64,000 nucleotides of DNA from NCBI GenBank assembly GCA_903894295.1, contig CAITPI010000112.1, forward strand, positions 1-64,000. Direction: 5' to 3'. The notes beneath the pieces were generated by a model, which was given only the letters and a program-made list of their open reading frames with translations, was not told where the DNA came from and did no database searches. Shown here in pieces: positions 7,746 to 64,000 of the stretch. Position numbers and translations under genes: made by a program. This DNA comes from an uncultured Acidimicrobiaceae bacterium (GTDB lineage: Bacteria > Actinomycetota > Acidimicrobiia > Acidimicrobiales > RAAP-2). Position 1 is the stretch's first letter; every line of letters begins with the position of its first letter.

Positions 7746-8603
7746 CTAGCGGTTCGCTTCGCCGACGCGCATGAGTCCTTCCTGGACCATCGAGACGACC
7801 AGTTCGCCGGCCTGGGTGTAGAGAAACCCTCGGGCGAGGCCACGGGAACCGTAGCTGGTTGGCGAGTCCATGTCGTAGAGCAGCCACTCGTCGATGCGGA
7901 AGGGCCGGTGGAACCACATGCAGTGGTCCAGGCTGGCCCCCATGAAGTTGCCGTCGTCCCACCGGACCTGGTGGGGGGCGAGCATTGTGTCGAAGAGCGA
8001 CATGTCCGAGGCGTAGGCGGCGATGCAGGCGTGCAACAAGGGATCGTCCGGCAGGGTTCCGTCGGCCCGGATCCACAGCTGCTGGATCGGGTCGCGTCCT
8101 TCCCGGTGGATGAACGGCAGCGGGCCGATGTGCCGTTGGTCGATGGGGTGGGGCCGGTCGAACCAGTCACCCATGTGCTCGCGGTAGGGCTCGAGTCGTT
8201 CCTCGAGGGTTGGCAGCTCGTCGGGCAGGGGCACCTCGGGGCGCTGGATCTGGTGGCTGAGTCCCGGTTCGTCGGCATGGAAGGAGGCCGAGAGGTTGAA
8301 GATGGCCCGCCCGTGCTGGATGGCGACCACCCGACGGGTCGTGAACGACTTGCCGTCCCGGATCCGGTCCACCTGGTAGAGGATCGGAATGGTGGGATCG
8401 CCCGGTCGGAGGAAGTAGGCGTGGAGCGAGTGGGGCCGGCCGGTCTCCACGGTGCGACCGGCGGCCATGAGGGACTGGGCCGCCACCTGACCGCCGAACA
8501 CCCGCTGGCGCTCCTCGCCGGCCGGAGAGGAGCCCCGGAAGATGTTGACCTCGATGGGCTCGATGTCGAGGAGGTTGACGAGAAAGTCGAGATCGTTGCT
8601 CAC
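7746..8603 (-). CDS. tesB: Acyl-CoA thioesterase II
   Basis: TesB hydrolyses medium- and long-chain acyl-CoA to free fatty acid and CoA. At 285 residues it matches the two-hotdog-domain family (E. coli TesB 286). Recognisable blocks are the N-terminal RVFGGQVAAQSLMAA and the central HAYFLRPGDPTIPILY. The C-terminal hotdog contains DGNFMGASLDHCMWFHRPFR and a closing strand ELVVSMVQEGLMR. The GTG start at 8603 gives the family N-terminus and is preceded by a TACACT box 6 nt away. The 3' end converges on citrate synthase with a 36-bp gap. Confidence 0.92.
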   Translation of the reverse strand: MSNDLDFLVNLLDIEPIEVNIFRGSSPAGEERQRVFGGQVAAQSLMAAGRTVETGRPHSLHAYFLRPGDPTIPILYQVDRIRDGKSFTTRRVVAIQHGRAIFNLSASFHADEPGLSHQIQRPEVPLPDELPTLEERLEPYREHMGDWFDRPHPIDQRHIGPLPFIHREGRDPIQQLWIRADGTLPDDPLLHACIAAYASDMSLFDTMLAPHQVRWDDGNFMGASLDHCMWFHRPFRIDEWLLYDMDSPTSYGSRGLARGFLYTQAGELVVSMVQEGLMRVGEANR

Positions 8604-8609
8604 CGGTCC

Positions 8610-8615
8610 AGTGTA
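8610..8615 (-). promoter_or_regulatory. Leaderless-type -10 box of tesB
   Basis: TACACT on the minus strand ends 6 nt before the tesB GTG. It decides between the GTG at 8603 and longer in-frame starts. Confidence 0.5.
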
Positions 8616-8833
8616 TGGGCGATGTTCCCGGCGACCATGAAGTCCGCCCCCTGGTTGTTCCGGGTTTGCTTCCCGCCGGTTCCTCCCACGGGAGCCGGTG
8701 GGGAGCACCCACGATGGCACGAGGCGTCGCCACCGTTGGTGCCGCCGTTGGTGCATCCAGTTGTCCGGCCCGGGTCGGACCGGGGGAGGTTGTCGGGGAA
8801 CCTGTGGTCAAGGCGCGCCCGGTGGGGGGACGC

Positions 8834-8839
8834 TACGGT
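8834..8839 (+). promoter_or_regulatory. Leaderless-type -10 box of the GH1 gene
   Basis: TACGGT ends 6 nt before GTG 8846. The promoter lies back to back with that of tesB in a region of about 240 bp. Confidence 0.45.
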
Positions 8840-8845
8840 GGCGCC

Positions 8846-10018
8846 GTGACTGCGACCAACTTTCCCGACGGGTTCCTCTGGGGGACGGCGACCGCCGCCC
8901 ACCAGATCGAGGGTGGGAACTCCAACAACGACTGGTGGGCCATGGAGCACGACCCGGCCGCCCTCTGCGCCGAGGTCAGCGGCGATGCGTGTGACTCCTT
9001 CCATCGCTACCCCGAAGATGTGGCCATGGTGGCCGGACTGGGATTTGGCTCCTACCGTTTCTCGCTCGAGTGGAGCCGAATCGAACCCGAGGACGGTGAG
9101 TTCTCCCGCTCGGCCCTCGACCACTACCGGCGGATGATCGGCACCTGCCTGGACCAGGGGATCGTCCCGGTGGTGACCTACCACCACTTCACCCACCCGA
9201 GGTGGCTGGCCGCCCGGGGCACGTGGGAGTGGGACGAGGCACCCGGGAGGTTTGCCCGTTTCTGCGAGCGGGCCACCGACCACTTCGGTGACCTGATCCA
9301 GATGGCGTGCACCATCAACGAGCCCAACATCGTGGCCACCATGGGCTGGGAGCTCGGCATCTTCCCACCCCGGGTCAGTGACGTCTCCCGTCGGGATGTG
9401 GTGAACGCCGCCCTGATCTCCGCCCACCACAAGGCGTCGGAGGCCATCAAGGGTTCGAAGGGCGAGTTTCCGGTCGGCCTCACCCTCTCCATGGCCGACT
9501 TCCAGGCCGAGCCCGGGGCGGAAGAGGCCCTCGAGGCCATCCGGCGTCCGGCCGAGGACGTCTTCCTCGAAGCCGTCGGGGGTGACGACTTCTTCGGGGT
9601 CCAGACCTACACCCGGATGCGGGTCGGTCCCAAGGGCTATCTCCGGTCGGAACCGGGTGTTCCGCTCACCCAGATGGGCTACGAAGTGTGGCCCGAGGCG
9701 CTCGAGGGCACCATCCGTCGGGCGTGGGAGAAGACCGGTGGCATCCCGCTGTACGTCACCGAGAACGGTATCGGGACCAGCGACGACGCCCAGCGCATCG
9801 ACTACATCACCCGGGCGCTGGGCGGAGTGCAGGCGTGCCTTGAGGACGGCATTGACGTCCGGGGGTACTTCGCCTGGTCGTTGATGGACAACTTCGAATG
9901 GGTCCTCGGCTACGGGCCGACCTTCGGAATGGTGGCGGTTGACCGGGAGACCTTCGAGCGCACCCCGAAACCGAGCGCCACCTGGCTGGGGAACGTCGCC
10001 CGGTCGAACGCCCTCTGA
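8846..10018 (+). CDS. Glycoside hydrolase family 1 (beta-glycosidase)
   Basis: GH1 enzymes hydrolyse beta-linked glucosides or galactosides with retention. The protein starts with the diagnostic FPDGFLWGTATAAHQIEGG. The acid/base glutamate is in TINEPN (about Glu159) and the nucleophile in YVTENG (about Glu306). The late motif GYFAWSLMDNFEW is present too. There is no signal peptide, so it is cytosolic. At 390 residues it is shorter than the usual 430-470; the missing length seems to lie in barrel loops, which may narrow or change substrate choice. The substrate cannot be inferred. GTG 8846 is set by the -10 box and the family N-terminus. Confidence 0.88.
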   Translation: MTATNFPDGFLWGTATAAHQIEGGNSNNDWWAMEHDPAALCAEVSGDACDSFHRYPEDVAMVAGLGFGSYRFSLEWSRIEPEDGEFSRSALDHYRRMIGTCLDQGIVPVVTYHHFTHPRWLAARGTWEWDEAPGRFARFCERATDHFGDLIQMACTINEPNIVATMGWELGIFPPRVSDVSRRDVVNAALISAHHKASEAIKGSKGEFPVGLTLSMADFQAEPGAEEALEAIRRPAEDVFLEAVGGDDFFGVQTYTRMRVGPKGYLRSEPGVPLTQMGYEVWPEALEGTIRRAWEKTGGIPLYVTENGIGTSDDAQRIDYITRALGGVQACLEDGIDVRGYFAWSLMDNFEWVLGYGPTFGMVAVDRETFERTPKPSATWLGNVARSNAL

Positions 10019-10019
10019 A

Positions 10020-10040
10020 CCCGGGCGTCCACCTCCCGGG
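10020..10040 (+). terminator. Hairpin after the GH1 gene
   Basis: CCCGGG, a 9-nt loop and CCCGGG directly follow the GH1 stop. It has no T-tract. It is a candidate end of the monocistronic transcript before the gtrA-like gene's own promoter. Confidence 0.4.
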
Positions 10041-10083
10041 CTCCACGGGAGACCCGATGACGGTGGGGTGGGAACGGGAAAGA

Positions 10084-10089
10084 TAGGCT
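10084..10089 (+). promoter_or_regulatory. Leaderless-type -10 box of the GtrA-family gene
   Basis: TAGGCT ends 7 nt before ATG 10097. Confidence 0.5.
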
Positions 10090-10096
10090 GGGAGCC

Positions 10097-10609
10097 ATGC
10101 CCAGTCTGGTGACCCGTGTCGTTCATGTGTGGGAGCGCCGGGACACCCCCGAGGCCCAGAAACTGATCCGCTACACAATGGTGTCGGTGATCTCGACCGC
10201 CGTGTCCTTTGTGGTGCTGTTCCTGGTGTTCGGCGTGCTGCGCCTGTGGGGCCAGATTGCCAGCACGGTGTTCGCCAATGCCGTGGCCACCGTTCCTTCG
10301 TACTTTCTCAACCGGCAGTGGGCCTGGGGCAAGAACGGCAAGTCACGCCTCATGCGGGAGATCGTCCCGTTCTGGGTCATGGCGGCCGCCGGCATCGTGG
10401 TGTCGGTGGGAGGAGCCGCCCTGGCCAAGCATCTCTCCCGGGTGCACCACCTGGGCCATGTCGAGTCCACCGTCCTTGTCCTGGCGGCCAACCTCTTCTC
10501 CTTCGGACTCTTCTGGATCCTGAAGTACCTGTTGTTCAACCGGATCTTCCACGTCCACCCGGTGGAAGACCTCGACGAGCTGGTCGAAGCCCTCGAACCG
10601 GTTGACTGA
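10097..10609 (+). CDS. GtrA-family membrane protein
   Basis: GtrA-like proteins are small four-helix membrane proteins involved in moving or using polyprenyl-linked sugars for cell-surface glycans. This 170-residue protein has the family opening LIRYTMVSVISTAVSFVVL, the loop NAVATVPSYFLNRQWAW with its conserved Asn-Arg-Trp, and the C-terminal SFGLFWILKYLLFNR. Four hydrophobic helices are visible at about 28-50, 55-75, 95-117 and 130-150. The last 20 residues are acidic and cytosolic. A partner glycosyltransferase is not adjacent, but an MptB-like enzyme lies about 2.2 kb downstream. Confidence 0.85.
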   Translation: MPSLVTRVVHVWERRDTPEAQKLIRYTMVSVISTAVSFVVLFLVFGVLRLWGQIASTVFANAVATVPSYFLNRQWAWGKNGKSRLMREIVPFWVMAAAGIVVSVGGAALAKHLSRVHHLGHVESTVLVLAANLFSFGLFWILKYLLFNRIFHVHPVEDLDELVEALEPVD

Positions 10610-54986: not shown

Positions 54987-56423
54987 ATGCAACCCGTCCT
55001 GACCGTGGCCGACCTCACCGGGGTGGACGCCCGTGCCCTTCAGGACGAGCCCCTCGAAGCCCTGGTGGCCCGGGCCGGATTCGCCGTGGCCAGGGAAGCC
55101 ATCCGGATGCTCGGTGGTGCCTACGGACGGAGGATCATCGTGGTGGCCGGGCCGGGCAACAACGGAGCCGACGGCAAGGTGGCCGCCCGGGTCCTGGCCG
55201 CCCGGGGGGCCCGGGTTGAGGTGGTTGGCCCGGACGTCGCCTCCGTCGGAGCGTGCGATCTCTTGGTCGATGCCGCTTTCGGCACCGGGTTCCGGGGGGA
55301 GTATGTGGCGCCGGAGAGGCCGGAAGGCTCCCGGGTGCTGGCGGTCGATGTGCCCTCGGGGGTCCAGGGTGATTCCGGGATCGCCTCGGGCCGGCCCTGG
55401 CGGGCCGAGCGCACCGTCACCTTCGTGGCACCCGTCCCGGGCCTGTTGCAGGGGGACGGCAAGGAACTGGCCGGCACGGTGGTGGTGGCCGACATCTCGT
55501 TGCTGGCCGAACCGGTCGATCCCGACCGGCGGATCGACCTGGTGGAAGACGGTGACCTGGCCCGGTGGCTCACACCCCGGGGAGTCCGGGCCCACAAGTG
55601 GGAGCGGGCGCTCTGTCTGGTGGCCGGATCGCCGGGGATGGCCGGGGCGGCGCACCTGGCGGCGGCCGGAGCGATGCGGGCCGGGGTCGGCATGGTGCGA
55701 CTCGGGATGCCCGGAACCGACCCGGCCACCGGCGCCGGGTTGACCGAGGCGGTGCAGTTCTCCCTGGAGTCCACCAACTGGTCGCCACCGGCGCTCGAGG
55801 CGGCGAGCCGGTGTCACGCCATGGTGGTCGGACCGGGGCTCGGCCGGGACGAAACAACACCCGAGGAGGTCCGCCGGGTCGTGGACGCGGCCCCGGGTCC
55901 CCTGGTGCTCGATGCGGACGGCCTCTTTGCCCTGGGTCGGATCACCACCCGGTTGCGGGAAGGAACCGGTGGGCAAGGACCCGGGGCCGGCCCGGTTGTT
56001 CTCACTCCCCACGACGGGGAGTATGACCGGCTGGTGGGGTGCCCACCGGGCCCCGACCGGGTGGCCGCGGCCCGGTATCTGGCCACAATCTCGGGGGCGG
56101 TTGCCCTCGTCAAGGGTTCCACGACGGCGGTGGCCGATCCTTCGGGCCGGGTGCTGCTCGTCACCTCGGGCTCGTCCGCGCTGGCCACGGCCGGCACCGG
56201 GGATGTGCTCTCGGGGGTGATCGGTGCCTTCCTGGCGGCCGGGATCCCGGCCCTCGAGGCGGCCGCCCTGGCGGCCCACGTCCATGGCCGGGCCGGCCGG
56301 TTGGCTTCGGGGGTCCTGGTGGCCGGGGACCTCCCGGCGTTGGTCGGAGAAGTGGTGGCGTCCCTGCGAAACTCTGGACCGGAGTCGACGCCTCGTGGGG
56401 AGCACGGACATGACGGGACCTGA
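54987..56423 (+). CDS. nnr: Bifunctional NAD(P)H-hydrate epimerase / dehydratase
   Basis: It repairs hydrated NAD(P)H: the N-terminal YjeF domain (about 1-210) epimerises NAD(P)HX and the C-terminal YjeF-C kinase-like domain (about 220-470) dehydrates the S form with ADP. Visible motifs are VVAGPGNNGADGKVAARVLA and AFGTGFRG in the first domain; in the second, VVGPGLGRD, VLDADGLFAL, LTPHDGEYDRL, VALVKGSTTAV and ATAGTGDVLSGVIGA. The 478-residue length suits the fusion form. It lies 11 nt after acpS and overlaps alr by one base (TGATG); yjeF-alr adjacency is common. Confidence 0.94.
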   Translation: MQPVLTVADLTGVDARALQDEPLEALVARAGFAVAREAIRMLGGAYGRRIIVVAGPGNNGADGKVAARVLAARGARVEVVGPDVASVGACDLLVDAAFGTGFRGEYVAPERPEGSRVLAVDVPSGVQGDSGIASGRPWRAERTVTFVAPVPGLLQGDGKELAGTVVVADISLLAEPVDPDRRIDLVEDGDLARWLTPRGVRAHKWERALCLVAGSPGMAGAAHLAAAGAMRAGVGMVRLGMPGTDPATGAGLTEAVQFSLESTNWSPPALEAASRCHAMVVGPGLGRDETTPEEVRRVVDAAPGPLVLDADGLFALGRITTRLREGTGGQGPGAGPVVLTPHDGEYDRLVGCPPGPDRVAAARYLATISGAVALVKGSTTAVADPSGRVLLVTSGSSALATAGTGDVLSGVIGAFLAAGIPALEAAALAAHVHGRAGRLASGVLVAGDLPALVGEVVASLRNSGPESTPRGEHGHDGT

Positions 56424-57604
56424 TGGAAATGGCTGAGCGGTGGCGCCCGGCATGGGCTGACGTTGATCTTGATGCGGTGGTCCACAACGCCGCCCTGTTG
56501 GGCCGTCTGGTCGCCCCGGCCGAACTGTGTGCCGTGGTGAAGGCCGATGCCTACGGCCACGGCAGCCTGGCCGTCGCCCGGGCCGCAGTGGCCGGAGGGG
56601 CGTCGTGGCTGGCGGTGGCCCTGGTGGAAGAAGGGGTGGCCCTCCGGGAGGCCGGCCTTGAGGTTCCCATCCTGCTGCTGTCCGAACCGCCGGCCGACGG
56701 TATGGCCGAGGCGATCGCCCGGGGGCTGTCACCGACCGTCTACACCGAAGAAGGCATCGCCATGCTGGACCGGCTCGCCCGGGAGGGTGGTCACCCGCCG
56801 GTTGGCGTCCACCTCAAGGTCGACACCGGCATGCACCGGGTGGGAGCGGCTCCGGCCGAGATCCCGGCGCTGGCCCGCCAGATCGATGCGGCCCCGCACC
56901 TTGTTCTCGATGCCCTCTGGACCCACTTCGCCGTGGCCGACGGGGCCCGGTCCAGTGACCGCGAGTTCACCAACGCCCAGGTGGCGCGCTTCGACGAGAC
57001 CCTGGCCGCCCTCGTGGCCGAAGGGTTGCGGCCCCGCCTCGAACATCTCGCCAACACGGCGGGGGCGATCGCCACCCCGGCGGCCCGGCGCCACATGGTG
57101 CGCTGTGGCCTCGGCCTCTACGGACTCGCTCCCACCCCGGCCCTCGAGGCGGCCATTGGAGAACTCACCGGCGGTGACGGGCTGCGCCCGGCCCTCTCGT
57201 TCCGCACCCAGGTGACCTTCGTGCGTGAACTCGACGCCTCCGAGCGGGTCTCTTACGGCTTGCGCCGGCCGTTGCCCGAGGCCAGCCGGGTGGCGATCGC
57301 CCCGGTCGGTTACGCCGACGGCGTGCCCCGCCGGCTGTTCGACGTGGGAGGACACGTACTGATCAACGGAGTGCGTCGCCTGTTGGCCGGATCGGTCACG
57401 ATGGACCAGATCATCATCGACTGTGGACCCTCGGACACTTCGGACGTCAAGGTCGGGGACGAAGTGGTCCTGCTCGGCCGGCAGGGTGACGACGAGATCG
57501 GTGCCCGGGAGTGGGCGGAGCATTTCGACACGATCCACTACGAGATCCTGTGCGACATCGGACCGCGGGTTCCCCGGCGCCATACCGGGACCCTGCCGTC
57601 ATGA
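56423..57604 (+). CDS. alr: Alanine racemase
   Basis: This PLP enzyme makes D-alanine for peptidoglycan. The PLP lysine is Lys40 in VVKADAYGHG. The second catalytic residue, the tyrosine of the C-terminal domain, lies in VSYGLRRPLPE-type sequence (ERVSYGLRRP). APVGYADGVPRRLFDVGG and GSVTMDQIIIDCG complete the family signature. The 393-residue length is normal. It overlaps nnr by one base and udg by four (ATGA). Confidence 0.95.
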   Translation: MEMAERWRPAWADVDLDAVVHNAALLGRLVAPAELCAVVKADAYGHGSLAVARAAVAGGASWLAVALVEEGVALREAGLEVPILLLSEPPADGMAEAIARGLSPTVYTEEGIAMLDRLAREGGHPPVGVHLKVDTGMHRVGAAPAEIPALARQIDAAPHLVLDALWTHFAVADGARSSDREFTNAQVARFDETLAALVAEGLRPRLEHLANTAGAIATPAARRHMVRCGLGLYGLAPTPALEAAIGELTGGDGLRPALSFRTQVTFVRELDASERVSYGLRRPLPEASRVAIAPVGYADGVPRRLFDVGGHVLINGVRRLLAGSVTMDQIIIDCGPSDTSDVKVGDEVVLLGRQGDDEIGAREWAEHFDTIHYEILCDIGPRVPRRHTGTLPS

Positions 57605-58191
57605 GTGGCGGCATGGACCGGCACCAGGCGCTGGCCGACCTGGCTGGCCGGGTGGCCGATTGCCGGGGGTGTGGCCTGGCCGAAGGACGCACCAATGTGG
57701 TGGTCTCCTCCGGACCAGAATCGGCCCGGGTGGCCGTCGTGGGTGAAGCACCCGGCCGGGAGGAAGACCTGGCCGGCCGGCCGTTTGTGGGTCGGTCCGG
57801 CCGGCTGCTCGACCAGCTGCTCGACGACACAGGCGGGCTCGGCCGCAACGAGGTCTACGTGGTGAACATGGTCAAGTGCCGGCCACCGGACAACCGGGCG
57901 CCGAAGGCCGACGAGTTGGCGGCGTGTCGTCCGTTTCTCGACGAGCAACTCGCCCTTGTCCATCCCCGGGTGGTGGTCACGTTGGGCAACGTGGCGACCC
58001 GGGCCATGCTGGACACGAAGGAAGGCATCACCTCCCTGCGGGGCCGGAGCCATGCCGATCCCGGCGGGGCACCCTGGCCGATCGTGCCGACCTTTCATCC
58101 TTCGGCCGGACTGCGCAACGGGGCCCGGGTCACCGGGCCGATGCGCGAGGATCTCGCCCGGGCGGCCGAACTGGCGGAAGCAACCAGATGA
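57601..58191 (+). CDS. Uracil-DNA glycosylase, family 4
   Basis: Family 4 UDGs are iron-sulfur enzymes that excise uracil from DNA. This 196-residue protein has the first cysteine pair CRGCGLAEGR, motif 1 VGEAPGREEDLAGRPFVGRS, and MVKCRPPDNRAPKADELAAC carrying two more cluster cysteines. Motif 2 is TFHPSAGLR. The start overlaps alr by 4 nt. tsaE begins 49 nt later with a strong ribosome site. Confidence 0.92.
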   Translation: MSGGMDRHQALADLAGRVADCRGCGLAEGRTNVVVSSGPESARVAVVGEAPGREEDLAGRPFVGRSGRLLDQLLDDTGGLGRNEVYVVNMVKCRPPDNRAPKADELAACRPFLDEQLALVHPRVVVTLGNVATRAMLDTKEGITSLRGRSHADPGGAPWPIVPTFHPSAGLRNGARVTGPMREDLARAAELAEATR

Positions 58192-58240
58192 CCAGTTGCC
58201 CAGGCAACCAGGAAGACCGGCATCCCGGGAGGAAGGAACG

Positions 58241-58849
58241 ATGACCACCGAGCACGAAACCCGGATCACCCCGGTGACCCTGGCGACGTCCGACGTGGCG
58301 GCGACCCGATCGGTGGCAGGAGTGGTGGCCAACCATTGCCGCGTCGGTGACGTGGTCCTGCTGGTCGGCGATCTTGGGGCCGGCAAGACGGCCTTTGCCC
58401 AAGGGGTGGGGACCGCCCTCGGGATTCCGGAGCCCGTCACCAGCCCGACCTTCACGCTGGTCCGTCACTACGCCGTCCCCCGGTCCATCACGGGTCAGGA
58501 CCGGGGGATCTCGGTGCTGCTCCACGCCGACGTCTACCGGTTGGACCACCTCCAGGAGATCGCCGATCTGGGACTCGGGGAGTTGGTGGAGGACGGCGGG
58601 CTGGCGCTGGTCGAGTGGGGCGACATGGCCGAGCCGCTTCTGGGGCAAGATGCCCTGGTGGTCACCCTCTTGCCGGACGACGTACACGACGAGCACCGGC
58701 GGATCGTCCTTCAGGGCCGGGGGTCGACGTGGGCCGCCCGGTGGAGTGCCCTCGCTGCGGCATTGGAGCCATGGCAGGCCGGTCCGGCTGTGGCCGGCGA
58801 GGTGGACGGTCCGGCTGTGGCCGGCGAGGTGAAGGGAACCGACCGGTGA
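58241..58849 (+). CDS. tsaE: tRNA t6A biosynthesis ATPase TsaE
   Basis: TsaE is the ATPase that activates the TsaB-TsaD complex for N6-threonylcarbamoyladenosine (t6A37) formation. It has Walker A GDLGAGKTAFAQGV near residue 44, VTSPTFTLVRHY, HADVYRLDHLQEIADLG and LALVEWGDMAEPLL. GGGAGGAAGG precedes ATG 58241. At 202 residues it is longer than the usual 150-165; the C-terminus ends with two copies of GPAVAGEV. tsaB overlaps its stop. Confidence 0.94.
   Translation: MTTEHETRITPVTLATSDVAATRSVAGVVANHCRVGDVVLLVGDLGAGKTAFAQGVGTALGIPEPVTSPTFTLVRHYAVPRSITGQDRGISVLLHADVYRLDHLQEIADLGLGELVEDGGLALVEWGDMAEPLLGQDALVVTLLPDDVHDEHRRIVLQGRGSTWAARWSALAAALEPWQAGPAVAGEVDGPAVAGEVKGTDR
58781..58834 (+). repeat. 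27-bp tandem duplication in the tsaE tail
   Basis: A 24-bp identical stretch occurs at 58781-58804 and 58808-58831 (period 27), encoding GPAVAGEV twice. It lies after the conserved domain, so it probably tolerates change in copy number. Confidence 0.8.
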
Positions 58850-59595
58850 CGGTGCTGGCAGTGGAGACGGCCACCAGCATGGTGGGAGTGGCGTTGGTTG
58901 CCCCGGATGGTCGCCGGGCCGAGCGCTGTCACTTCGAAGGTCGCCTGCACGCCGAACTGTTGGCGCCGGCCATCGCCGAGGTGTGCGACGAGTTGGACGT
59001 GCCGCTGTCGGACATCGACCTGGTGGTGGCCGACTGCGGGCCCGGACTCTTCACCGGATTGCGGGTGGGCGTGGCCACGGCCAAGGCGATGGCCCAGGCG
59101 TTGGGTGTTCCCACCCTCGGTGTGTCGAGCCTGGACGTCCTGGCGGCCGCGGCATTTCCCCACCGGGACGGCCGTTGTGTGGTCTCGGTGGTCGACGCCC
59201 GTCGGGGGGAGGTCTTTGCCGCCGCCTATGGACCCGGACCGGAGGAAGATCCCGCCGCCAACCGCCAGGAGTGGGCCACGCCGGTCACGCCCGAGCAGCT
59301 GGAGTCCTGGTTGGACGGACTGATCGGTCACTTTGGTCCGTTGATGGTGGTCGGGGACGGGGCGGTCCGCTACGCCGACCGCCTGGCCGGGAACCCCGGT
59401 CTGGACCTGACGCAGGCTCCCTCGTTGGCGGCACCACCACCCGGCATCATGGCCGACCTGGCCCGGTTGCGACGCGACGCCGGAGTGCCCCTTGTGGCCG
59501 CCGGCGACCTGATGCCGGACTATCGCCGTCCGGCCGACGCCCAGATCAACTGGGAGCAACGCCGGCCACCGGTTGTGCCCGGCCCGGCTGCTTGA
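58846..59595 (+). CDS. tsaB: tRNA t6A biosynthesis protein TsaB
   Basis: TsaB is the inactive paralogue that scaffolds TsaD and TsaE in t6A synthesis. The 249 residues have VLAVETATSMVGVALVAPDG, HAELLAPAIAEVCDELDVPL, VVADCGPGLFTGLRVGVATA and SVVDARRGEVFAAAYGP. It starts at GTG overlapping the tsaE stop. rimI follows after 16 nt, the usual tsaE-tsaB-rimI order. Confidence 0.94.
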   Translation: MTVLAVETATSMVGVALVAPDGRRAERCHFEGRLHAELLAPAIAEVCDELDVPLSDIDLVVADCGPGLFTGLRVGVATAKAMAQALGVPTLGVSSLDVLAAAAFPHRDGRCVVSVVDARRGEVFAAAYGPGPEEDPAANRQEWATPVTPEQLESWLDGLIGHFGPLMVVGDGAVRYADRLAGNPGLDLTQAPSLAAPPPGIMADLARLRRDAGVPLVAAGDLMPDYRRPADAQINWEQRRPPVVPGPAA

Positions 59596-59611
59596 CTCCC
59601 GGGGTTACCTG

Positions 59612-60142
59612 GTGAGTCCGGAAGTGTTGGTGCTGGCCCCGATGCGCATGGGCGACCTGCGGGCGGTGCTTCGTATCGAGGAGGAGTGTTTTCCCGATCC
59701 GTGGTCGAAGCGCCTCTTCGAGGAAGAGTTGAAGCAGCGCACGTCCCGGTCGTATCGGGCGGCCTGGGTGGGCCACGACCTGGTGGGATTCGCCGGCCAG
59801 ATGTTCATCGACGACGAGTCCCACGTGAACAACGTTGCCGTCGACCCGGCCCGTCAGGGCGAAAAGATCGGCGGAGCCCTCCTCGTCGACCTGGTGCGCA
59901 ACGCCCTCGATCGGGGCCAGCGTCATCTCACCCTCGAGGTGCGGGTCGGCAACGAGCCGGCCATCGCCCTCTACCGGCGGCTCGGCCTCGCCCCGGTCGG
60001 CGTGCGTCCGAACTACTACCCCAACGGCGGAGACGCCCAGATCATGTGGGCCCACGACCTCGACGACCCGGCCTACGAAGAACGCCTGGCCGGCCTGGAG
60101 GCCGAACTGGCGGCCCACTGGACCATCGACCGCCGGTTCTGA
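59612..60142 (+). CDS. rimI: Ribosomal protein S18-alanine N-acetyltransferase (RimI)
   Basis: RimI is a GNAT enzyme that acetylates the N-terminus of S18 and sometimes other proteins. The 176 residues have MGDLRAVLRIEEECFPDPWS near the start, GQMFIDDESHVNNVAVDPAR, the acetyl-CoA loop ARQGEKIGGALL and the C-terminal VRVGNEPAIALYRRLGLAPV and GVRPNYYPNGGDAQIMW. GTG 59612 was chosen over TTG 59573, which overlaps tsaB. The acetyl-CoA loop has Gln-Gly-Glu-Lys-Ile-Gly, a normal variant. Confidence 0.9.
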   Translation: MSPEVLVLAPMRMGDLRAVLRIEEECFPDPWSKRLFEEELKQRTSRSYRAAWVGHDLVGFAGQMFIDDESHVNNVAVDPARQGEKIGGALLVDLVRNALDRGQRHLTLEVRVGNEPAIALYRRLGLAPVGVRPNYYPNGGDAQIMWAHDLDDPAYEERLAGLEAELAAHWTIDRRF

Positions 60143-60150
60143 TCTCGGCG

Positions 60151-60167
60151 TCAGCCCTTCCGGCTGA
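60151..60167. terminator. Bidirectional hairpin between rimI and the small Cys-rich gene
   Basis: TCAGCC-CTTCC-GGCTGA is a perfect 6-bp stem overlapping the stop codon of the convergent small gene, 8 nt after rimI. It could end both transcripts. Confidence 0.45.
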
Positions 60168-60306
60168 ACCACCGCTTCGTCGCCGTGGCTTCATGGCCGG
60201 AGCACCGCTGGTCGGCCGGGACGTGACCCAGCACCGATTCGACGTGGGCGCCACAACCCTTCCAGGTGGGGCGGCCGCAGGTTCGACACGTTACTTGTCT
60301 GCACAT
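60151..60306 (-). CDS. Small Cys-rich zinc-ribbon-like protein
   Basis: A 51-residue reading frame starts with [19 protein letters not shown], continues AHVESVLGHVPADQRCSGHE and ends in a basic tail. Cys2, Cys7, Cys10, Cys18 and Cys35 plus several His could bind a metal. I recognise the pattern M-C-x-x-V-x-C-x-x-C-G-x-x-T-W-x-G-C-G-x-H from small uncharacterised actinobacterial proteins; no function is established. It is the third gene of the minus-strand csoR module. The ATG lies at the end of a CsoR-type operator and 7 nt after a TACCCT -10 box inside that operator, so it is predicted leaderless and separately controlled. Confidence 0.75.
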   Translation of the reverse strand: MCRQVTCRTCGRPTWKGCGAHVESVLGHVPADQRCSGHEATATKRWFSRKG

Positions 60307-60320
60307 ACCCCCGAGGGTAT
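60305..60320 (-). promoter_or_regulatory. CsoR-type operator O2, overlapping the small gene's -10 box and start codon
   Basis: ATACCCCCGAGGGTAT (plus strand) is a near-palindrome of the ATACCCC-type sites bound by CsoR-family repressors. It matches the site upstream of csoR in 14 of 16 positions. On the minus strand it contains the -10 box TACCCT, and its last two bases are the AT of the small gene's ATG. Confidence 0.65.
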
Positions 60321-60353
60321 CAGGGAGCACCGGGAACCGGACCGCGGCCTTGG

Positions 60354-61037
60354 TTAGCGTTGGAACACCCGGGAGAGGAAGCCTTCGAGCCGGGACGGGT
60401 CGGCCGTGATGGTCTTGTGGCCGTCGGCGTCCTTGGTGATGGTGAGCCCCGGGCAGAACATGCCCTCGTCACCGAAGAAGAAGTGTGGCGAGCCGATGAC
60501 ACCCCGTCGCCCGCCTTCTGCGTAGTCATCGGCCACGGTCTCCCGGTCCCGCTCCGTGATTCCGGTGACCCCGACGGCGGCGCCGAGTGAGCGGAGGACC
60601 CCGGGGTCCGAGATGTCCCGTCCCTCTTCGAACAGGGCGGTGCGCAGCGAAAAGCTGAGCGCCTCACCTTGTTCCGGCCCCTTCCGGTAGGCGGCGGCCA
60701 CCCAGGCCAGGGCTTCGAGGGTCGACTCCGGGAAGTTGGCCGGATCGAAGTGGGCGAACAGGTCGGGGGCGACCTGGTGGCGCAGCTCGTGGACGTGCCC
60801 GGCGGTGGTCGAAGGATCGAGCGGGCGCTGGTTCACCCATTCGAGCGGCCACGCCCGGACCCTGACCGGGACGTCGGCCCGGCCGAAATTGTCTCGTTGC
60901 CGGGCCACCATGACGAGGCCGACGTAGGCGAAGGGGCACCAGATGTCGGCGAAGATCTCGAGTGGGGCCACCGCGCCGGGGCGGACGTCTCGATGTGGCG
61001 TCGGCCCGGAGTTGGCGGTGGGGGTGGGTTCGGACAT
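60354..61037 (-). CDS. DsbA/FrnE-family protein with CPFA active site
   Basis: It is a thioredoxin-fold protein of the DsbA/FrnE branch, 227 residues. After a 25-residue polar lead comes the strand LEIFADIW and the active site C34-P-F-A37-YVG. FrnE relatives have CPWC here, so the resolving cysteine is missing and disulfide exchange would be monothiol. The helical insertion (about 90-170) and the cis-proline loop GVIGSPHFFFGDE are conserved. A further cysteine sits in MFCPGLTI. There is no signal peptide, so it is cytosolic. AAGGAG lies 7 nt before the ATG. It is 60 nt downstream of csoR on the same strand, so sulfur or redox chemistry linked to that regulator is likely. Confidence 0.85.
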   Translation of the reverse strand: MSEPTPTANSGPTPHRDVRPGAVAPLEIFADIWCPFAYVGLVMVARQRDNFGRADVPVRVRAWPLEWVNQRPLDPSTTAGHVHELRHQVAPDLFAHFDPANFPESTLEALAWVAAAYRKGPEQGEALSFSLRTALFEEGRDISDPGVLRSLGAAVGVTGITERDRETVADDYAEGGRRGVIGSPHFFFGDEGMFCPGLTITKDADGHKTITADPSRLEGFLSRVFQR

Positions 61038-61097
61038 GGACACTCCTTGGGACGGGGACGGGTTCGTGGTGTCGGGCCGGCCCACCGGGCCGGTTCT

Positions 61098-61367
61098 TCA
61101 GGCCAGTTTGGTGAAAAGGCGCTGGACCTCCTCGATGGGGTAGCCCGAGGACCGGGCCTCTTCCGGGTGCTCGATGCAGTAGGCGAGGCCGGCGGCGATC
61201 AGCCGGAAGCCGACCTGCTCGAGGGCCTTGGTGGCCGCGCTGAGCTGGGTCACGATGTCCCGGCACTCCCGACCCTGTTCGAGCATGGCCTCAACGGCCT
61301 TCACCTGTCCGCCGGCCCGACGGAGCCTCACGGCGAGGTCGGCGACGACATCGTCAGGGAGTTGCAC
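61098..61367 (-). CDS. CsoR/CstR-family transcriptional repressor
   Basis: This 89-residue all-helical DUF156 protein is of the family that senses Cu(I), Ni, formaldehyde or persulfides. It has RLRRAGGQVKAVEAMLEQGR, then Cys35 in ECRDIVTQLSAATKALEQVG and Cys64 in AAGLAYCIEH. The 29-residue Cys-Cys spacing equals that of Cu-sensing CsoR (Cys36/Cys65) and of CstR (Cys31/Cys60). The third copper ligand of CsoR (His61) is Gly60 here, so a copper sensor is unlikely and a CstR-like persulfide sensor is the better guess. GTG 61367 has GGAGG 8 nt upstream. It leads the csoR-dsbA-like-small gene set. Confidence 0.88.
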   Translation of the reverse strand: MQLPDDVVADLAVRLRRAGGQVKAVEAMLEQGRECRDIVTQLSAATKALEQVGFRLIAAGLAYCIEHPEEARSSGYPIEEVQRLFTKLA

Positions 61368-61396
61368 GGTTCCTACCTCCGGTGGTGGCGGACAAC

Positions 61397-61412
61397 ATAC
61401 CCCCAAGGGTAA
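61397..61412 (-). promoter_or_regulatory. CsoR-type operator O1 upstream of the csoR-like gene
   Basis: ATACCCCCAAGGGTAA (plus strand) lies 30-45 nt before the csoR-like GTG. On the minus strand it reads TTACCCTTGGGGGTAT and contains the -10-like TACCCT, so bound repressor would block its own promoter. It is also 28 nt from the divergent tsaD -10 box and could affect tsaD. Confidence 0.65.
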
Positions 61413-61440
61413 TGGAACCGGACCGAAACCGGCGCGGCGA

Positions 61441-61446
61441 TAGCCT
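61441..61446 (+). promoter_or_regulatory. Leaderless-type -10 box of tsaD
   Basis: TAGCCT ends 6 nt before the tsaD ATG. tsaD thus has its own promoter after being separated from tsaB-rimI. Confidence 0.5.
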
Positions 61447-61452
61447 GTCGGG

Positions 61453-62499
61453 ATGACCACGTCTGCGCTCCGGTCGCCCGACAACCGCCCGATCCGCCGG
61501 GTGCTTGGCATCGAGACCAGTTGTGACGACACGGCGGCCTCGGTGGTGGACGACGGGGTGACCATCGTCTCCTCGGTGGTCTCCAGCCAGATCGACCTGC
61601 ACGCCACCTACGGTGGCGTGGTGCCCGAACTGGCGGGCCGGGCCCACCTGGAACTGCTGACCCCGGTGATCGCCGACGCGCTGGCCCGGGCCGGGTCGGA
61701 CGAGACCGGACGCGGCATCGACGCCATCTGCGTGACCCACGGTCCCGGCCTGGTGGGCTCGTTGCTGGTGGGGGTGTCCGAGGCCAAGGCGCTGGCCATG
61801 GCCTGGGGCGTTCCCTTTGTCGGGGTGAACCACCTGGAAGCCCATCTGTTCGCCTCGATGCTGGAGCAGCCCGATCTCGGCTGGCCGCTGGTGGTCCTTC
61901 TGGTTTCGGGGGGCCACTCGATGGTGGTGGAGGTGACCGAACCCGGCCGCTACCGCGTGCTCGGCGGCACCATCGACGATGCCGCCGGCGAAGCGTTCGA
62001 CAAGGTGGCCCGGTATCTGGGACTTGGCTATCCCGGCGGCCCGGTCATCGACCGGCTGGCCCGGGAGGGTGACCCGAAGGCGTTCAACTTCCCCCGGTCC
62101 CTGCCCGGTGACGGGTATGACTTCTCCTTTTCGGGCCTCAAGACGTCGGTCATCAACACGGTGCGCAAGAACCCGGAGGCGGCCACCGCCGACGTGGCCG
62201 CCTCGTTCCAGCAGGCCGTGGTCGACGTTCTGGTCACCCGGGCCACCGCCGCCGCCGAAGAGGTCGGGGCCAGGGCCATCTGCCTGGCCGGTGGAGTGGC
62301 CGCCAACTCGCAACTGCGCGAGGCGGTGGCCGAGGTGGCCGCCGGTCTTGGCATCGGGGCGTTCCTGCCGAGTCGTTCGCTCTGCACCGACAACGCCGCC
62401 ATGGTGGCCGCCGCCGGCTACTGGCGCCTCCACCACGGCGACACCAGTGGACTCGACCTCGGGGTCGATCCCAACCTCCGTCTGGTCCCGCTGGCCTGA
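61453..62499 (+). CDS. tsaD: tRNA N6-adenosine threonylcarbamoyltransferase TsaD
   Basis: TsaD transfers the threonylcarbamoyl group to A37 of ANN-decoding tRNAs. The 348 residues carry a short lead, then VLGIETSCDDTAASVVDDG, VVPELAGRAHLELL, THGPGLVGSLLVGVSEAKAL, the metal-binding His127-x3-His131 in NHLEAHLF, SGGHSMVVEV, FDKVARYLGLGYPGG and the late LAGGVAANSQLR. The family is normally in the tsaE-tsaB-rimI-tsaD order; here a minus-strand module of about 1.3 kb lies between rimI and tsaD. Confidence 0.95.
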   Translation: MTTSALRSPDNRPIRRVLGIETSCDDTAASVVDDGVTIVSSVVSSQIDLHATYGGVVPELAGRAHLELLTPVIADALARAGSDETGRGIDAICVTHGPGLVGSLLVGVSEAKALAMAWGVPFVGVNHLEAHLFASMLEQPDLGWPLVVLLVSGGHSMVVEVTEPGRYRVLGGTIDDAAGEAFDKVARYLGLGYPGGPVIDRLAREGDPKAFNFPRSLPGDGYDFSFSGLKTSVINTVRKNPEAATADVAASFQQAVVDVLVTRATAAAEEVGARAICLAGGVAANSQLREAVAEVAAGLGIGAFLPSRSLCTDNAAMVAAAGYWRLHHGDTSGLDLGVDPNLRLVPLA

Positions 62500-62555
62500 T
62501 TGCCCGGTTTTTTGCCGGACCGATACCGCCCTGAACAGGAGTTTTGTCTCTTCCG

Positions 62556-62582
62556 TTGGCACTCTCGGGGGGTGTTTGCCAA
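62556..62582. promoter_or_regulatory. CIRCE-like repeat, degenerate upstream copy
   Basis: TTGGCACTC, a 9-bp spacer and GTTTGCCAA have the same arm length and spacing as CIRCE; six of nine arm positions pair. It overlaps the -35 box of the groES promoter. Confidence 0.5.
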
Positions 62583-62604
62583 GTAGGCTCCGGCCCACTA
62601 TCAT
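62576..62604 (+). promoter_or_regulatory. groES-groEL promoter
   Basis: TTGCCA (62576-62581), a 17-nt spacer and TATCAT (62599-62604) place the transcript start near 62611, inside the downstream CIRCE element. Confidence 0.65.
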
Positions 62605-62630
62605 TAGCAGTCTCATACCTCGACTGCTAA
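62604..62630. promoter_or_regulatory. CIRCE element (HrcA operator)
   Basis: TTAGCAGTC, a 9-bp spacer and GACTGCTAA form a perfect inverted repeat. The consensus is TTAGCACTC-N9-GAGTGCTAA; one symmetric position differs in each arm. It lies over the transcript start of groES, the standard place for HrcA repression released by heat shock. No HAIR (HspR) sequence was seen. Confidence 0.85.
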
Positions 62631-62655
62631 CTGCGAGCCAATAGGAGGCCCACAC

Positions 62656-64000
<1,345 letters not shown>

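Follow-up and report, generated by a model that had tools for sequence, protein, structure and literature searches.

A small cysteine-rich protein gene fused to a CstR-type operator and its probable place in the sulfane-sulfur response of actinobacteria

The window, which is the whole 64,000-nucleotide stretch of an uncultured Acidimicrobiaceae genome that was analyzed, contains what we take to be a cstR-dsbA-small gene module on the minus strand, set between rimI-like and tsaD-like genes (56423-63998). The surrounding run lies otherwise on the plus strand and presumably reads alr/tsaE/tsaB/rimI/tsaD/groES/groEL, with names given from sequence. Translation of 60151-60306 on the minus strand yields a 51-residue product with Cys at positions 2, 7, 10, 18 and 35, as the original prediction had it, and relatives conserve all five. 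The placement of this gene third on the strand, after CsoR-like and DsbA-like genes, was borne out by matches of the two neighbors to PF02583 and PF01323 (Table 1). The 3' end of the small gene lies 8 bp from the stop of the convergent rimI-like gene.

Table 1 Coordinates of genes and promoter elements of the module in the window
Feature	Position	Strand	Remarks
Small Cys-rich protein gene, 51 codons	60151..60306	-	Stop 60151-60153, ATG 60304-60306; supported by translation, family conservation and purifying selection
CstR-type operator ATACCCCCGAGGGTAT	60305..60320	.	On the minus strand, 3' half runs into the small-gene ATG
TACCCT, candidate -10 element (TANNNT)	60314..60319	-	7 nt before the ATG; predicted from sequence
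DsbA/FrnE-like thioredoxin-fold protein, CPFA replacing CxxC	60354..61037	-	PF01323, E 5.5e-11; FrnE is the nearest structure
CsoR-family repressor, CstR type, C-x28-C, Gly for copper-ligand His	61098..61367	-	PF02583, ligand typing
Second CstR-type operator ATACCCCCAAGGGTAA	61397..61412	.	In the gap that separates csoR (-) from the divergent tsaD-like gene (+)

The repressor is the only PF02583 gene in the window's genome and matches the family with an E value of 8.8e-20 (71.3 bits versus a cut-off of 22.8). By the rule that we assume for this family, a His four residues before the second Cys is the copper ligand of copper-type members, and its absence indicates the CstR type. The window repressor has two Cys 29 residues apart and carries Gly, not His, at that position; because the copper-ligand His is absent, it is classified by sequence as a CstR-type, persulfide-sensing member of the CsoR family. 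Copper or metal sensing was dropped as the main reading after this ligand typing, there being no copper-type (C-H-C) repressor at the locus. The closest solved structure to the DsbA-like protein is FrnE (E 1.4e-4). The small gene likewise directly follows a DsbA-family gene on a Mycolicibacterium plasmid (L294), and loci L076 and L078 gave DsbA-like matches.

An operator of its own had been claimed for the small gene, and ATACCCCCGAGGGTAT at 60305-60320 answers to that description, fitting ATACC-N6-GGTAT exactly; the site at the csoR promoter fits it at 15 of 16 positions. ATACC-N6-GGTAT is the site described for the sulfane-sulfur CsoR (SCO0620) of S. coelicolor (PMC7533328). The repressor site also has the form TACCC-N4-GGGTA. 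In the minus-strand reading, GATACCCTCGGGGGTATG, the palindrome forms one piece with the ATG and a TANNNT-like -10 box, an arrangement that implies a leaderless mRNA, so the small-gene transcript is probably leaderless. Leaderless mRNAs are described as common in mycobacteria (PMC4633059). Only two copies of the core TACCCNNNNGGGTA are present in the assembly (2.68 Mb, 95% complete), one at the csoR promoter and one at the small gene; because its backwards control also occurs at two places, it is the position of the pair, 1.1 kb apart at both promoters of the module, and not its count that goes beyond chance. The looser form ATACCNNNNNNGGTA added one place, on contig C111.

The same fusion recurs in relatives. 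TACC-N6-GGTA was found within 150 bp upstream of the small gene in 72 of 128 distinct relatives, compared to 0.2 for base-shuffled upstream regions, and in 51 of the 128 it stands at exactly -13, fused to the start (0.0 after shuffling); within those 150 bp it was absent in 56. A search of the order (148 genomes) located TACCCNNNNGGGTATGTG at 24 places, spread over 23 genomes, with two for the backwards control. By coordinates, 20 of the 24 are small-gene starts and one more is the G090 copy, which is broken in the assembly; two others precede SulP-like genes, as judged by eye, and the last has a TauE gene next to it (L312; Pfam).

Homologues of the small protein were detected at 45 places in 43 of the 148 genomes of the order, in 49 of 396 genomes of the phylum, in 67 of 72,556 plasmid records (the organisms among the matches listed being actinobacteria) and in at least 588 stretches of species genomes. 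From these last, the best 80 of at least 588 were taken as loci, a set that leans to near relatives and belongs mainly to Actinomycetota, plus five Myxococcota-labelled contigs. By sequence similarity, the family is thus found to be widespread in actinobacteria. Phage records contained one relative and viral contigs another (L116). In the latter (8179-10186), the small gene sits directly 3' of an integrase-like ORF, as judged by eye, and is probably host DNA at a prophage edge; for this reason we do not regard the small gene as a phage gene.

Alignment of 81 relatives revealed a strictly kept core. All five Cys are retained in 81/81, M1, G17, G19 and H21 are invariant, every protein starts with Met-Cys, and the spacing C7-x2-C10-x7-C18-x2-H21, a CxxC knuckle with a second ligand pair, is universal. 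After C35, the next potential ligand is C37 in 53 relatives and H38 (C-x-G-H) in 26, with neither in two; such Cys/His exchange is typical behavior of metal ligands. Within the last 12 residues, 61 of the 81 carry [WFLI][WFLIV]x[RK], compared to an average of 5, and at most 11, over 500 shuffles. Pooled pN/pS was 0.15 over 20 pairs of close relatives, which are non-independent and in part redundant, and the peptide is taken to be under purifying selection. These sequence comparisons confirm 60151-60306 on the minus strand as a real, conserved gene.

The proposed search against small-protein families was performed with Pfam, NCBIfam, PHROGs and PDB and gave no family. For the window protein, NCBIfam, PHROGs and PDB yielded no match and Pfam only DUF702 (PF05142), a plant SHI-type zinc finger with a weak likeness in Cys/His spacing (E 0.04; 14.9 bits versus a curated cut-off of 20.6). 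Even with E values as high as 1 allowed, just 10 of the 81 relatives gave a match to it; homology to DUF702 is not claimed. Searching all 81 relatives against Pfam and NCBIfam gave no convincing match, those to FeS and Zn_ribbon families being weak throughout, and the family profile matched zero PDB chains. Three RefSeq plasmid records label the protein 'hypothetical'. Text searches with its peptide fragments returned a single, unrelated malaria paper, and the family was absent from titles and abstract beginnings of literature on leaderless, small Cys-rich and CsoR or sulfane-sulfur small proteins.

An AlphaFold2 model built with the 81 sequences has two short strands at 3-6 and 13-16 and a helix at 22-26, and is weak (mean pLDDT 71, pTM 0.42). 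A search of solved folds with it gave a best Foldseek E value of 3.7 and no Z of 2 or more. The model fits a treble-clef-like zinc site C7-C10-C18-H21 that would leave C2, C35 and C37/H38 free; a zinc-ribbon pairing of C7-C10 with C35-C37/H38 is equally possible. The zinc-ribbon-like layout first proposed thus stands as far as plausible zinc binding is concerned, given the C-x2-C-x7-C-x2-H spacing and the Cys/His swap at the last ligand.

The small gene keeps close company with CsoR-family genes. Over the 80 loci, 24 CsoR-family matches fall within 500 bp (30.4 per 100 kb) compared to one at 5-10 kb (0.2), a 150-fold difference in density. Frequent pairing with csoR-like genes had been named as support for a shared function, and a CsoR-family gene lies within 2.5 kb in 29 of the 80 loci; a rhodanese does so in 26. 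Across 87 loci (L031-L116 and the window), 38 contain 39 CsoR-family proteins; the copper-ligand His is missing from all but one of the 39, which assigns those 38 to the CstR type. The CstR of Staphylococcus aureus is likewise without the copper ligand set. The five Myxococcota-labelled loci (L089, L102, L103, L111 and L112) lack both the operator and a CsoR-family gene over the flanks examined. On plasmids, 10 of 14 annotated stretches carry a CsoR-family gene, usually accompanied by rhodanese, TauE/SafE, MBL-fold, DUF302, DsrE or FAD oxidoreductase genes. The small gene also stands next to cstR on plasmid pRHL3 of Rhodococcus jostii RHA1 (WP_085996134) and in a Glutamicibacter. CsoR is missing from stretches H1 (TauE and rhodanese) and H8 (DUF302 and YgaP-like genes). 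In H16, a DsbA-family gene that ends directly before the small gene is the sole such companion, and H40 has no sulfur-type or CsoR companion. Besides CstR, no recurrent fixed partner was found.

Co-occurrence across the 148 genomes pointed the same way once the repressors were typed. PF02583 as a whole is present in 32 of 43 genomes with the small gene versus 68 of 105 without it, which is uninformative because copper-type CsoR confounds the count. A CstR-type repressor, in contrast, stood out after typing at 28 of 43 versus 19 of 105 (Fisher 6e-8, ignoring shared ancestry), with both numerators tallied by hand from 110 PF02583 places among the matches listed (L183-L292) and with G108, which has a truncated copy, counted among the 28. 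Counting ten untyped genomes against the link gave 28 of 43 versus 29 of 105 (p = 2.6e-5, again without regard to ancestry). Operator position, proximity and this co-occurrence strongly uphold the predicted link to a CsoR/CstR-type repressor.

The genes that share the operator were then considered in eight genomes (G005, G032, G040, G053, G082, G087, G095 and G117), which hold 39 other exact sites; 35 of these were examined, in 33 regions, the remaining four being in G005. Pfam matches at the sites included PDO-rhodanese (L304, L314, L321 and L348), rhodanese (L306, L309 and L318), TauE (L312 and L339), the CstR gene itself (L315 and L321), thioredoxin (L308, L313 and L346) and DUF302 (L316). 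At L307, a coenzyme A-disulfide-reductase-like gene (subfamily by eye) likewise has its ATG fused to the operator, and at L341 and L342 Pyr_redox_2 genes that look SQR-like by eye lie 142-190 bp from the site. In all, 13 of the 33 regions have a strict sulfur gene or cstR, four have thioredoxin or DUF302, three have other genes of interest and 13 have nothing relevant or recognizable. At L310, the exact core site of CstR type, TACCCAGGAGGGTA, precedes a cytochrome bd subunit I gene by 66 bp, which fits a sulfide-resistant oxidase under sulfur control; a ferritin-like gene was matched at L303 and MMPL at L302. PDO, rhodanese and TauE genes carry this operator in relatives; in the window's genome, none was found with the exact site.

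These target classes are those of a known circuit. In the available parts of its report, S. coelicolor SCO0620 is persulfidated at Cys37 and controls PDO (SCO0618), rhodanese (SCO0621) and TauE genes (PMC7533328); its repressor family, two conserved Cys and operator are those of the window, and its target classes recur in relatives of the window's genome. Those parts of the report name no small Cys-rich protein. Unlike that circuit, the exact operator in the window's genome marks csoR(-dsbA) and the small gene only, and no sulfur enzyme. The CstR of the Staphylococcus aureus cst operon is likewise a persulfide-responsive CsoR-family repressor; it controls a single operon of sulfur enzymes, with no mini-protein mentioned in the available parts of that report (PMC5480029).

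Homologues free of any csoR-like link had been proposed as evidence against the prediction. Of the 43 genomes that have the small gene, 13 showed no CstR-type protein. Where CstR is missing from a lineage, the small gene often carries a different palindrome, WTGTMCGKACAW, also given as a ATTGTCCGTACAAT-type form, which lies 10-60 bp upstream in relatives without the CstR operator (for example L023, L038, L055, L061, L072, L073, L101, L120, L135 and L145); L009 has it upstream of the small gene as well. In eight genomes chosen for having the small gene and no detected CstR-type protein, WTGTMCGKACAW occurs 20 times, at 1-4 places per genome compared to 0-2 for the backwards control; the window's genome has none. 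Three of the 20 are the small gene, and the other 17 (L322-L338) were all examined. Sulfur or thiol genes are present at 13 of the 17: PDO-rhodanese (L325, L334, L336 and L337), rhodanese (L326, L330 and L333), SulP (L322, L326 and L338), sulphur transport PF04143 (L323), a Cys/Met PLP enzyme (L332) and 1-Cys peroxiredoxin (L328 and L329). The remaining four comprise an ECF sigma factor (L324) and three places outside the Pfam run (L327, L331 and L335). Literature searches with six forms of WTGTMCGKACAW gave, among the matches listed, titles unrelated to bacterial sulfur regulation. The palindrome marks a second sulfur/thiol regulon, apparently undescribed, of which the small gene is a member in Acidimicrobiia and related actinobacteria, and offers a route to a further sulfur-responsive regulator. 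Because several CstR-less genomes carry WTGTMCGKACAW, the link to sulfur survives, whereas that to csoR is not universal. Since the CstR operator and WTGTMCGKACAW both mark sulfur genes, the small gene can be assigned, on sequence grounds, to the sulfane-sulfur response, with control by two or more regulators.

The small protein is therefore probably a sulfur- or zinc-handling protein of the reactive-sulfur stress response. More specifically, we propose, at a probability of about 0.45, that it is a CstR-repressed zinc-thiolate protein that carries or buffers persulfide (protein-bound sulfane) sulfur. At low sulfane sulfur, the CstR-type repressor would sit on the palindrome over the -10 box and ATG and keep the gene off; as sulfane sulfur rises, modification of its two Cys would release it and the leaderless mRNA would be made, a sensing and derepression scheme that follows from the repressor family and operator. 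The product would be cytoplasmic, with seven conserved thiol or imidazole positions (C2, C7, C10, C18, H21, C35 and C37 or H38). Four of these would most likely hold one zinc, and the other thiols, including Cys2 exposed by Met removal, could accept sulfane sulfur and pass it to rhodanese, persulfide dioxygenase or thioredoxin-type proteins; this division of ligands is a guess. The basic aromatic tail may dock the protein to a partner or the membrane. We favor the carrier or buffer reading because the product would be inducible and of zinc-thiolate type, would keep one or more thiols spare, and belongs to regulons with PDO, rhodanese, SQR-like, TauE and thioredoxin genes.

The same features can be read in other ways. 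The main rival, a serious if unlikely one, is that the protein serves the sulfane-sulfur response as a small zinc-finger adaptor or regulator, with structural zinc and a tail that binds the repressor, a rhodanese, a membrane enzyme or RNA polymerase and with no sulfur carried. The C-x2-C-x7-C-x2-H spacing and the Cys/His swap at the last ligand are typical of structural metal sites, and the strong C-terminal motif and the two strands and short helix of the model suit it as well; yet its thiols, all of them invariant, outnumber those that a single zinc site requires, and a recurrent fixed partner other than CstR is missing. Improbable in our view is a thiol peptide consumed stoichiometrically as a persulfide sink or substrate, its N-terminal Cys acting as acceptor without onward transfer: the universal Met-Cys start and the persulfide dioxygenase and rhodanese in the same regulons agree with this, but the strict spacing across the core implies a fold and not merely thiols.

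The original prediction left sulfur and metal sensing side by side. A Cys-rich mini-protein beside a CsoR-family gene does recall a metallothionein-like buffer for copper or zinc that is controlled by a metal-sensing CsoR, and MymT, the mycobacterial copper metallothionein of the RicR regulon, is short, Cys-rich and CsoR-family-repressed. The sequence patterns of MymT and the small protein presumably differ, however, and the MymT regulon is copper-type whereas the repressors at the small gene are CstR-type. The copper-ligand His is missing from the window repressor as from 38 of 39 neighbors, the co-regulated genes are sulfur genes and not copper exporters, and five fixed Cys are more finger-like, so that of the two proposals sulfur is favored and this buffer is quite improbable. 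A leaderless Cys-codon attenuator uORF with a functionless peptide, of the kind proposed in mycobacteria (PMC4633059), would account for the leaderless-type start and the Cys content. With a convergent gene 8 bp away, nothing co-directional downstream in the window to attenuate, and purifying selection on a peptide with a conserved C terminus, its likelihood is negligible, and it was discarded in view of gene order and conservation.

The known members of CstR-type sulfane-sulfur regulons are enzymes (persulfide dioxygenase, rhodanese, TauE and SQR). A conserved mini-protein, often unannotated, is bound to such regulons as tightly as the enzymes are. That it matches nothing in the family libraries that were searched suggests a missing step, the carrying or buffering of protein-borne sulfane sulfur without glutathione. 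As a tentative and, on present evidence, somewhat unlikely extension, this family of about 50-residue zinc-thiolate proteins may be a core, regulator-independent effector of actinobacterial sulfane-sulfur homeostasis, an encoded persulfide carrier or buffer in bacteria without glutathione that has been recruited by two repressor-operator systems, CstR and that of WTGTMCGKACAW, unrelated to each other.

The csoR operator at 61397-61412 stands upstream of the divergent tsaD-like gene too, about 40 bp from its start, and the window repressor may for this reason also affect this tRNA-modification gene. In Microbacterium, two divergent paralogs of the small gene lie less than 2.5 kb apart (7808 and 10001 in L077; 7574 and 10001 in L098), one with an operator at about -40 and the other downstream of cstR.
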